DNA from: Microbacterium sp.
GTDB lineage: Bacteria > Actinomycetota > Actinomycetes > Actinomycetales > Microbacteriaceae
Direction: 5' to 3'
Assembly (NCBI RefSeq): GCF_031178525.1
Contig: NZ_JAPSJA010000004.1
Span: forward strand, 1-41,824
DNA length: 41,824 nucleotides
Shown: piece by piece, positions 11,877 to 15,678 of the stretch
Layout of the letters: every line of letters starts with the position of its first letter
Position numbering within the stretch: the first letter of the stretch is position 1
Notes under the pieces: generated by a model
What the model was told of the DNA's origin: nothing
What the model saw: the letters and a program-made list of their open reading frames with translations, nothing else
The model's database searches: none
Translations under genes and position numbers: made by a program

Positions 11877-12851
11877 ATGGCCGTCTTCCGACGCGTGATC
11901 CTGCCTGTCTTCTGGCTCATCATCGGCGCGATCGTCGCCGTGGCGCTCGCCAAGCTCGCGTTCTTCCCCGACCGCGCCGAAGCTCCCGCGGTGGGCGCCG
12001 GCGCGGAGCCGACGGGAGCGCTCGCCGAGCCGCAGCTGCCGGTCGAGCGCGGCACGATCGTGAACGACCTCGAGCTTCCCGCGACGATCGCGAACGACCC
12101 CGCCGTGGCGGTGCAGGCGCACAAGGCCGGGACGGTGGTGGATGTCTTCTTCCGCAAGGGACAGCAGGTGAAGGCCGGCGCGATCGTCGCCAGCGTCCGC
12201 GAGCAGGTGCCGCAGGAGGACGGATCGACCACCGACCTGTGGAGCGAGATCATCGCGCCCGGCACGGGAACCCTGTCCGACCTCACCCTCGCGAGCGGTC
12301 AGGCCGTGGCGCCGGGAGACACGGTCGGGGCGATCGCGCCGGCGACCTTCCAGATCCAGGGCTCGATCCCGCCGGCGGATCGCTACCGCCTCACGACGGA
12401 GCCGAAGGAGGCGACCATCGAGATCACGGGCGGGCCCGCGCCGTTCACCTGCAAGGGTCTCGTGCTGGAGACGCCGCTCGCGGGGCTCGAGAGCGAGAGC
12501 GGCGAGGCCGCCGCGCCCGCGACGACCACGGTGCGCTGTCCCGTGCCCGACGACGTGCGGGTGTTCCCCGGACTGAGCGCCACGATCACCATCCCGGGCG
12601 GCGTGGCCGAGGACGTGCTCGTCGTGCCGATGACGGCGGTCCTCGGCACGGCGGAGTCCGGTGTCGTGTTCGTGCCCGGCCCCGACGGACTGCCGGAGGA
12701 GCGCGACGTCGTCCTCGGCCTGAACGACGGTTCGGTCGTCGAGGTGCGCGAGGGGCTTGAGGAGGGCGAGGCGATCTTCGAGTTCGTGCCCGTCTCCGAG
12801 CAGCCCGGCGAGGACGCCGACGCTCAGACGACCGCCGGGGCGGAGGGGTGA
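11877..12851 (+). CDS. Efflux periplasmic adaptor-like (MacA/HlyD-type) protein
   Basis: N-terminal TM; biotinyl-lipoyl-like VQAHKAGTVVDVFFRKGQQVKAGAIVA; precedes ABC ATPase and MacB-type permease. Confidence 0.85.
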   Translation: MAVFRRVILPVFWLIIGAIVAVALAKLAFFPDRAEAPAVGAGAEPTGALAEPQLPVERGTIVNDLELPATIANDPAVAVQAHKAGTVVDVFFRKGQQVKAGAIVASVREQVPQEDGSTTDLWSEIIAPGTGTLSDLTLASGQAVAPGDTVGAIAPATFQIQGSIPPADRYRLTTEPKEATIEITGGPAPFTCKGLVLETPLAGLESESGEAAAPATTTVRCPVPDDVRVFPGLSATITIPGGVAEDVLVVPMTAVLGTAESGVVFVPGPDGLPEERDVVLGLNDGSVVEVREGLEEGEAIFEFVPVSEQPGEDADAQTTAGAEG

Positions 12852-13582
12852 GCGCGCCGATCCTGCGGGCTCGCGGCATCACCCGCACGGTCGAGCTGCC
12901 CGACGCGGCGCCCCTGCACATCCTGCGCGGTGTGGATCTCGACGTCGCGGTCGGCGACCATCTGAGCGTCATGGGCCGGTCAGGATCCGGGAAGTCGACG
13001 CTGCTGAACATCCTCGGCCTGCTCGACGCCCCCACGGACGGCGAGCTCGAGTTCGACGGCGTGCCGCTGCAGCGCATGAGCGCCGGGAGGCGGGATCGCA
13101 CGCGCGGCAGGAACGTGGGGTTCGTGTTCCAGCAGTTCAACCTGCTGCCCGGACGCACCGCGCTCGAGAACGTCGAGATGCCGCTGCTGTACGACAGCGG
13201 ACGCGCGTTCTGGCGACGGCGTGCGATCGCGACGGACATGCTCGAGCGCGTGGGGCTCGGCGACAGGCTCGAGCAGATGCCCGAGCGGCTGTCGGGCGGC
13301 GAGCAGCAGCGCGTCGCGATCGCCCGCGCGCTCGTGCGCTCACCGCGGCTGATCCTCGCGGACGAGCCGACCGGCGCGCTCGACGTCGAGACCGGGGCCG
13401 TGATCATGGATCTCCTCGACGACATCGCCACGCAGGCGGGCGCCGCGCTCATCACGATCACCCACGACCCGCACGTCGCGGTGCGCGCACGGCGCGCCTA
13501 CCGGCTCGCGGAAGGCGTCCTGCACGAGACCGTCCCTGTGCTCGAGGCGGACGCGATCGCGCGCACGGGAGGAGTGGCATGA
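12848..13582 (+). CDS. ABC transporter ATP-binding protein (MacB/LolD-type)
   Basis: GRSGSGKSTLLNILGLLD, LSGGEQQRVAIARALVRSPRLILADEPTGALD. Confidence 0.95.
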   Translation: MSAPILRARGITRTVELPDAAPLHILRGVDLDVAVGDHLSVMGRSGSGKSTLLNILGLLDAPTDGELEFDGVPLQRMSAGRRDRTRGRNVGFVFQQFNLLPGRTALENVEMPLLYDSGRAFWRRRAIATDMLERVGLGDRLEQMPERLSGGEQQRVAIARALVRSPRLILADEPTGALDVETGAVIMDLLDDIATQAGAALITITHDPHVAVRARRAYRLAEGVLHETVPVLEADAIARTGGVA

Positions 13583-14841
13583 GGCCGCTCACCGCGATCA
13601 CCGGCGCGCTCACGGAGGCGTGGCAGGAGCTGCGTGTGCACCGGCTGCGCGTGCTGCTCAGCCTGATCGTCGTCGCGGTCTCCGTCGCCGCGTTCACGGG
13701 CGTCGTGGCCCTCGGGCAGATGATGGCGCAGGGCTTCCAGGAGCAGATGGAGCGCTCCGGCGGCAGGCCCGCCCTCGTCGGATTCTCGGCCTTCGAGGCC
13801 TCGAGCGACCCGGACGCGGTCCCGGAGCCGCCGGACGCGGACGTCGTGGACGCGGCGTTCTTCGCGACGACGGAGCGCTTCGGCGTCGACTGGGCCGCGC
13901 GTGTCGCGCAGGTCGACGCGGTCGTGCCGAGCGGGCCCTGGGTGAGCATGCAGGCGGTCGACCCGGACTACGGCGTCATGCGGCGCGTCCCCGTGCTCGA
14001 GGGGCGATGGTTCACGGATGCCGACGGCGACCGGCTCGTGCCCGCGGTCGTGATCAGCGAGAACTGGTGGAAGGCGCTGGGCGCTCCCGCGATGCAGGCT
14101 CATCCCACCGTGACGCTCACCCTCAGCTCCTGGAACGTCGACGGCACGCCGTCGGCGCGGGTGAACGCCGAGGCGGTCGTCGTCGGGGTGACCACGTCGA
14201 CGGCGGGGCCGGACGGATACAGCGGCTACATCGTCTACGAGGACGCTGCAGGGATCGTCGGGCCGACGCTGAGCGCGAATACGTCGCGAGAGGCGTGGAT
14301 CCCCGTCGAGGGCGCGGACGAGCTCATGGAGGCGATGAAGGTCTCGATGGCGGCGAGTCTTCCGCGCGGCATGGAGGCCGACGCGTACCGCAGCGACTTC
14401 CTGTTCCAGCAGGAGCAGGGCGGCTACGACCCGTTCGGTCCGATGTTCCTGATCCTCGGCGCGATCGCGGCGCTCATCCTGGCGCTCGGTGGGCTCAGCC
14501 TGCTCAACATCACGCTCGTCACGGTGCGGCACCGCATCCGGGAGATCGGCGTGCGACGCGGCTTCGGGGCGACCGGCACGCGGGTGTTCTTCTCCGTCAT
14601 GCTCGAGAGCGTCGTCGCGACCGTCATCGCGGGCGGCGTCGGCATCGTGATCGCGATCCTCGTCCTGCGTATGCCGCTGCTGACGGACAACCTGTTCGCC
14701 GGTCTGCAGGAGCCGCCGGCGTTCCCCATGTCCGCGGCCGTGACCGGCCTGCTGGTCTCTGCGGTCGTCGGCGCCCTCGCGGGGCTGCTGCCCGCGCTCG
14801 TCGCCGTGCGGGTGCGCCCGATCGACGCCATCCGCTACTGA
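13579..14841 (+). CDS. ABC transporter permease (MacB/FtsX-like)
   Basis: N-terminal TM, MacB-type periplasmic region, LGGLSLLNITLVTVRHRIREIGVRRGFGAT, C-terminal VAVRVRPIDAIRY. Confidence 0.93.
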   Translation: MRPLTAITGALTEAWQELRVHRLRVLLSLIVVAVSVAAFTGVVALGQMMAQGFQEQMERSGGRPALVGFSAFEASSDPDAVPEPPDADVVDAAFFATTERFGVDWAARVAQVDAVVPSGPWVSMQAVDPDYGVMRRVPVLEGRWFTDADGDRLVPAVVISENWWKALGAPAMQAHPTVTLTLSSWNVDGTPSARVNAEAVVVGVTTSTAGPDGYSGYIVYEDAAGIVGPTLSANTSREAWIPVEGADELMEAMKVSMAASLPRGMEADAYRSDFLFQQEQGGYDPFGPMFLILGAIAALILALGGLSLLNITLVTVRHRIREIGVRRGFGATGTRVFFSVMLESVVATVIAGGVGIVIAILVLRMPLLTDNLFAGLQEPPAFPMSAAVTGLLVSAVVGALAGLLPALVAVRVRPIDAIRY

Positions 14842-14864: not shown

Positions 14865-14870
14865 TAGGCT
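14865..14870 (+). promoter_or_regulatory. Candidate -10 (TAGGCT) for rpsD
   Basis: TAGGCT matching the TANNNT pattern seen upstream of other genes here; implies ~125-nt leader. Confidence 0.4.
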
Positions 14871-14884
14871 TGATCGGCTCGAAA

Positions 14885-14996
14885 ATCCGGGCACATCCCC
14901 TTTCGCACGATCCCTCGGGTGGGTAGACGTACGCCCGAACCGGATGGAAGGGGACTGTACGTCCGAGCGTCGCGATAGCCGCGGCCTCGTGAAAGG
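14885..14996 (+). promoter_or_regulatory. Candidate structured leader (possible S4 autoregulatory element) of rpsD
   Basis: GACGTAC(14926-32)/GTACGTC(14957-63) flanked by CTCG(14914-17)/CGAG(14964-67); loop AAGGGGA(14948-54) complementary to TCCCCTT(14896-902); CCTTTC(14899-904) complementary to SD GAAAGG(14991-96). Confidence 0.5.
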
Positions 14997-15001
14997 AAAC
15001 C

Positions 15002-15631
15002 ATGGTTACCAAGTCCCAGGACCGCCGCAAGGTCCGCCTGTCGCGCGCCCTCGGCGTCGCGCTGACCCCGAAGGCCGCGCGCTACCTCGAGAAGCGCCCT
15101 TACGGCCCCGGTCAGCACGGCCGCACGAAGCGCAAGACCGACAGCGACTACGCCGTCCGTCTGCGTGAGAAGCAGCGTCTGCGCGAGCAGTACGGCATCC
15201 GTGAGAAGCAGCTGCGCATCGCCTTCAACGAGGCTCGCCGCACCGAGGGCCTGACGGGTGAGAACCTCGTCGAGCTGCTCGAGATGCGTCTCGACGCCCT
15301 CGTGCTGCGTTCGGGCTTTGCCCGCACGACCGCGCAGGCCCGTCAGTTCGTCGTGCACCGTCACATCACGGTCGACGGCAAGATCGTCGACCGCCCGTCG
15401 TTCCGCGTGAAGCCGGGCCAGACGATTGAGGTCAAGGCGAAGAGCGAGGGCCTCGAGCCCTTCCAGGTCGCGGCTCTCGGCGGTCACGCCGAGGTGCTGC
15501 CCGCCGTGCCCGGCTACCTCGAGGTCGAGCTCGACAAGCTCCAGGCGAAGCTCGTGCGTCGTCCCAAGCGCGCCGAGGTGCCCGTCACGTGTGACGTGCA
15601 GCTCGTCGTCGAGTACTACGCCGCGCGCTGA
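15002..15631 (+). CDS. rpsD: 30S ribosomal protein S4
   Basis: KSQDRRKVRLSRALGVALTPKAARYLEKRPYGPGQHGRTKRK; S4 domain ARTTAQARQFVVHRHITVDGKIVDRPSF. Confidence 0.98.
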   Translation: MVTKSQDRRKVRLSRALGVALTPKAARYLEKRPYGPGQHGRTKRKTDSDYAVRLREKQRLREQYGIREKQLRIAFNEARRTEGLTGENLVELLEMRLDALVLRSGFARTTAQARQFVVHRHITVDGKIVDRPSFRVKPGQTIEVKAKSEGLEPFQVAALGGHAEVLPAVPGYLEVELDKLQAKLVRRPKRAEVPVTCDVQLVVEYYAAR

Positions 15632-15646
15632 GCGATCCCGCGCTGC

Positions 15647-15678
15647 GAGGGCGTCGAGGCTTCGGCCTCGGCGCCCTC
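15647..15678 (+). terminator. Hairpin terminator after rpsD
   Basis: GAGGGCGtCGAGGC-TTCG-GCCTCGgCGCCCTC, 14 paired positions incl. one G-U; UUCG tetraloop; no strong U-tract. Confidence 0.75.

Follow-up and report, generated by a model that had tools for sequence, protein, structure and literature searches.

How is the synthesis of ribosomal protein S4 adjusted in Microbacterium sp., and does the DNA in front of its rpsD gene encode an RNA that takes part in this? S4 autoregulates its synthesis in Gammaproteobacteria and in Bacillus via leaders that are unrelated (PMC7247131, PMC10931766), and its leaders are a textbook example of unrelated RNAs that regulate one protein. Within the stretch of 41,824 nucleotides analysed here (the window), an initial annotation had proposed a pseudoknotted S4 autoregulatory leader directly 5′ of rpsD. 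A conserved pseudoknotted leader is indeed present there, as compensatory changes in relatives and the conservation of the pseudoknot core indicate. We consider it probable (roughly 0.78) that this leader, designated type A, is an S4-binding autoregulatory element that represses rpsD translation and represents a new structural class.

The rpsD gene of the window is the single S4 match in the source genome, and it is the sole ribosomal protein gene of its apparent transcription unit. The next gene after rpsD is alaS. A strong stem-loop follows rpsD, which is a possible terminator (Table 1), and rpsD is therefore probably monocistronic. On the other side, genes for a LolD/MacB-like ABC-transporter ATPase and permease (12848–14841) end about 35 nt 5′ of the rpsD leader. 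The rpsD transcript is predicted to begin at about 14876–14878, since 81 of the 83 non-redundant leaders have a TANNNT element that begins exactly 11 nt 5′ of the first P1 G. Since the predicted start is 5′ of P1, the entire structure should be within the transcript. The same spacing speaks against a transcription start downstream of 14930, which the initial annotation had named as evidence that would count against its proposal. A terminator-like site was looked for in the rpsD leader and none was found, which makes translational control likelier than attenuation.

In 5′ to 3′ order the type A leader, which in the window extends over about 14876–15001, consists of hairpin P1, the long-range helix P2 with hairpin P3 inside it, a pseudoknot formed by the P3 loop, and hairpin P4 next to the Shine-Dalgarno sequence (SD). 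The pseudoknot connects the P3 loop with the P2–P4 junction, and in the window its pairing can be extended to GACGTAC/GTACGTC. Only 1 nt lies between the end of P4 and the SD, which in the relatives is likewise placed shortly after P4 and which is unpaired in the conserved type A fold. P1, P2, P3 and P4 are all found in the single-sequence MFE fold, calculated with no comparative input; for the leader 14877–15010 the MFE is −55.2 kcal/mol (z = −2.07), and 4 of 200 shuffles are as good.

Table 1. Features of the rpsD locus in the window, and loci of the second leader type (type B) in other Microbacteriaceae.
Feature	Position	Strand	Basis
-10 element TAGGCT (TANNNT)	14865–14870	+	fixed spacing in relatives
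P1, hairpin GCTCG 14877–14881 / CGGGC 14888–14892	14877–14892	+	intact in 81/83; in MFE fold
P2, long-range helix 14894–14902 (CATCCCCTT) with 14948–14957 (AAGGGGACTG); C14955 bulged	14894–14957	+	compensatory changes
P3, hairpin within P2; stems ATCC 14910–14913 / GGAT 14942–14945 and TCGGGT 14915–14920 / GCCCGA 14933–14938; loop with 8-nt motif GTAGACGT, 14923–14930	14910–14945	+	9/10 model pairs changed on both sides
Pseudoknot, P3 loop GACGT 14926–14930 with ACGTC 14959–14963	14926–14963	+	core complementary in 82/83
P4, hairpin; CGAG 14964–14967 / CTCG 14986–14989; bulged C14968; GTCGCG 14969–14974 / CGCGGC 14980–14985	14964–14989	+	98% of cells paired; 6/10 pairs compensatory
SD GAAAGG of rpsD	14991–14996	+	sequence
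rpsD, ribosomal protein S4; ATG at 15002	15002–15631	+	NCBIfam TIGR01017 (E 6e-63) and NF003717 (E 5e-70), both above cut-offs
G+C-rich strong stem-loop 3′ of rpsD, GAGGGCG...CGCCCTC, weak U tract	15647–15678	+	read from sequence
Type B leaders	L109:1339–1440; L123:135–236; L138:137–239; 49 others		

The fold was judged from relatives: 80 rpsD loci, mostly from Microbacterium, together with family genomes (1–2 per genus, 85 genera, partly read). One common architecture, type A, is seen in the leaders of Microbacterium and about ten further genera, and the alignment of these relatives has invariant positions in the type A loops. From 28 leaders a covariance model, R1, was built that has 123 positions and 33 pairs and omits the pseudoknot; 84 distinct leaders were aligned to it for the analysis of covariation. 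Across these 84 leaders 91.9% of the cells are paired, and when the registers are slid this value drops to 27–45% in every case. Changes on both sides were counted in 25 pairs and 334 cells, as compared with 18.5 and 116 in shuffles, and none of 500 shuffles reached either number. P1 contributes both-side changes in 5 of its 7 model pairs and P2 compensatory changes in 5 of 6 (e.g., UA/CG, CG/AU); in P3, 78% of the cells are paired because the stem lengths vary. The stem lengths are also the reason why RNAalifold recovered only the pseudoknot and fragments of P4 from a raw MAFFT alignment, a shortfall that was fixed by segment-wise and covariance-model alignment.

A more stringent comparison was made with a tree-based null, in which substitutions were re-dealt on a FastTree tree and column pairs scored by a G-test with APC, using an R-scape-like in-house script rather than R-scape itself. 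The top seven of about 7,000 column pairs were all structural. The best pair of all columns is in P4, and no score under the null was higher; E was 0.02 and 0.05 for two pairs of P2, and 0.1–0.4 for one P3 and two P4 pairs. Covariation in the rpsD upstream regions of relatives, which the initial annotation had suggested looking for, is thus found against the tree null and against shuffles, and P1, P2, P3 and P4 all covary in the aligned sequences.

The pseudoknot has to be considered separately. Its five-pair core is kept in 82 of the 83 non-redundant leaders, the exception being L197 with an altered loop, in an alignment that was not fitted to the pseudoknot pairing; in 2,000 random re-pairings the number of complementary leaders averaged 76 and never rose above 81. 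One pair is clearly variable (A-U in 26, G-C in 19, G-U in 38), and A-C never occurs at it. By conservation the pseudoknot thus appears well supported, by covariation weakly, because essentially only this pair varies, and of the helices it is the least independently proven.

All complementary segments to which the initial annotation had drawn attention are present in the window: GACGTAC (14926–14932) and GTACGTC (14957–14963), TCCCCTT (14896–14902) and AAGGGGA (14948–14954), ATCCGG (14885–14890) and CCGGAT (14940–14945), CCTTTC (14899–14904), and CTCG (14914–14917, also 14986–14989) and CGAG (14964–14967). Several of them find other roles in the conserved fold. The pairing of GACGTAC with GTACGTC is real, with GACGU/ACGUC kept as described above, and forms the pseudoknot from the P3 loop, not the nested hairpin as which it had been drawn. 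Conversely, TCCCCTT and AAGGGGA do form a helix, which had been taken for a pseudoknot and is the nested helix P2, its exact extent varying. CGAG pairs with the CTCG at 14986–14989 in 69 of 83 leaders and with the CTCG at 14914–14917, its first assigned partner, in only 7. The second pseudoknot, ATCCGG with CCGGAT, is intact in 2 of 83: ATCCGG is the 3′ strand of P1 (81/83), and CCGGAT pairs with ATCC at 14910–14913. A mutually exclusive switch between CCTTTC and the SD had also been envisaged. Of 80 leaders, 17 contain the exact anti-SD hexamer, as compared with about 8 for shuffled hexamers; the hexamer is not conserved, and the purine-rich 3′ strand of P2 may account for the surplus. The last three pairings, CTCG 14914–14917 with CGAG, ATCCGG with CCGGAT and the anti-SD, are to all appearances coincidences of the window sequence.

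How widespread is type A? Of 300 family genomes searched whole, 28 (from 11 of the 85 genera) contain a single R1 match, with E values of about 1e-6 to 1e-19; in 297 genomes of the order there was none outside Microbacterium, and no match was found outside the family. It should be noted that searches over more than 40 genomes were run with stricter filters, by which weak matches could be lost. By tblastn, the type A loci fetched have rpsD directly downstream; the single exception, L186, lies on a contig that stops about 30 nt beyond the motif. At genes other than rpsD no R1 match was seen in the genomes searched. A degenerate type A-like rpsD leader (GGCUCG, GGCGU...ACGCC) that falls below the model threshold is found at L103 (G018), the RpsD of which is a long branch inside the type A clade.

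Does type A correspond to an S4 leader already described? The search of Rfam suggested in the initial annotation returned nothing from Rfam 15, whether the query was the window, the leader by itself or any of 15 other leaders; over the leader, the Alpha_RBS model failed to match even with the limit relaxed from the gathering score to E = 10. A flavivirus frameshift match on the minus strand (E = 4) is noise. Alpha_RBS of the Gammaproteobacteria resembles type A: it too is a leader with a pseudoknot, sited at the ribosome-binding site of a unit that includes the S4 gene, and S4 is presumed to repress translation. In E. coli, however, the pseudoknot spans the ribosome-binding site of rpsM in the alpha operon, whereas in type A rpsD stands alone and the SD is just 3′ of P4. 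With the S4 leader of Bacillus subtilis and other Firmicutes type A has the stand-alone rpsD and the proposed ligand in common. The Firmicutes leader is reported to lack a pseudoknot and to carry an rRNA-mimicking GUAA (PMC10931766, PMC7247131), whereas type A has its pseudoknot core in nearly all leaders and no conserved GUAA among the invariant columns.

The S4 leaders in Eckert and Weinberg (2020) are from Gammaproteobacteria, Firmicutes, Bacteroidia, Clostridia, Flavobacteria and Fusobacteriales, and Table 1 of that paper contains none from Actinobacteria. Their S4 motifs are, like type A, r-leader candidates from comparative genomics 5′ of rpsD-containing units; type A differs from them in lineage and in the shapes described, those of Bacteroidia and Flavobacteria being described as hairpins. 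A review from 2024 describes only the S4 cases of E. coli and Bacillus (PMC10931766). In the open-access papers searched we found no actinobacterial S4 leader, the 30 ribosomal-leader candidates of PMC11109978 being outside this comparison. Type A is therefore likely to be a structurally new S4 leader. As regards the criteria for an r-leader, it has a covariation-supported structure and is consistently 5′ of a ribosomal protein gene (with the one contig-end exception).

Mechanistically, S4 in excess over 16S rRNA would bind the pseudoknotted leader and so hold the pseudoknot and helix P4 stable against the ribosome-binding site; productive initiation by 30S subunits would be prevented and the translation of rpsD lowered. 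The blockage could be an entrapment, as in the model for E. coli (PMC10931766), or an exclusion; with the SD itself unpaired in the conserved fold, the way of blocking is a guess. We infer binding and repression by S4 from the position of the leader at rpsD and from the autoregulation by S4 elsewhere, and take translation as the likelier level of control. A mimicry of the S4 site of 16S rRNA was sought in the leader and none was convincing. One candidate, CGGCGUGC, is found only in a Microbacterium subgroup and is within the range of shuffled 16S controls.

Among other explanations the one that fares best, although unlikely, is that the leader is a structured 5′ UTR acting without a ligand, for mRNA stability, ribosome standby or constitutively high translation. 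Its stable hairpin P1 at the predicted 5′ end is like that of stabilising leaders, and its other end adjoins an accessible SD. However, a multi-helix pseudoknot with invariant loop positions is more than stabilisation requires, and the occurrence at rpsD only, with one match per genome, suits a ligand-specific element. Such an element need not respond to S4: another ribosomal protein, a small molecule or an sRNA could be the ligand of a cis-regulatory RNA at rpsD, the sequence not revealing the ligand and a likeness to the 16S S4 site not being demonstrable. This we regard as quite improbable, since the motif is found at rpsD only and rpsD is apparently the sole ribosomal protein gene within its reach. 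That the segments are complementary by chance, in intergenic DNA rich in G+C and with no RNA conserved, fits the look of the ATCCGG/CCGGAT and anti-SD pairings, but for the leader as a whole it is refuted by the comparative data, namely the covariation of P1–P4, the fixed distance to the promoter and the rpsD-only matches with E values down to 1e-19.

The reading of type A as an S4 leader gains a second aspect from the rest of the family. Most other Microbacteriaceae have a different rpsD leader, type B, in which a hairpin H1 with the loop GGCUGC is followed by a hairpin H2 with the loop UGUAGCC and then by CAUCCCUCU. The stem of H2 covaries strongly and is 93% paired. GUAGCC of the H2 loop is complementary to GGCUGC of the H1 loop, and the two loops may kiss; the contact is invariant, so that covariation is uninformative on it. 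A model of type B, R2, matched 82 of the 120 family genomes searched, covering 59 of 85 genera; outside the family it gave four weak matches, none of them at rpsD, and in the loci tested type B had no Rfam match. Both types precede the same gene in the same family and possibly have the CAUCCCUCU strand and P2 in common, whereas type B has two hairpins with complementary loops and lacks P1, P4 and the GRCGU pseudoknot. By descent the two types may have one helix in common. The type B leaders L118, L129, L131 and L164 also contain CAUCCCUCUUC...GAAGA..GAUG, which resembles P2 of type A.

None of the 120 genomes has a type A and a type B match together. In a tree of RpsD (209 columns), which represents one short gene and in which the type A loci were partly picked for closeness to the window, the two types are interleaved, and at least five changes are forced by well-supported branches. 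This suggests that the leader was replaced, or that rpsD was transferred together with it, more than once. We lean, if only slightly, to the view that the family has two unrelated, undescribed and mutually exclusive S4 leaders, interleaved on the RpsD tree, and that S4 autoregulation was repeatedly rebuilt or exchanged over a short evolutionary time. Two new leader classes in one family would be a close-range natural experiment on the replacement of ribosomal protein regulation, and their comparison may show which RNA features S4 really needs. The models of both types are possible submissions to Rfam.

Both types also occur within one genus code, for example in G082 versus G283 (g83) and in G048/G118 versus G265 (g49). 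At four loci (L100, L105, L106, L134), in genomes with neither R1 nor R2 matches at rpsD, there is a further conserved form of rpsD leader, GGUCGUUCCCUCACCG ... GUGGCCGAGAGAAC or similar.
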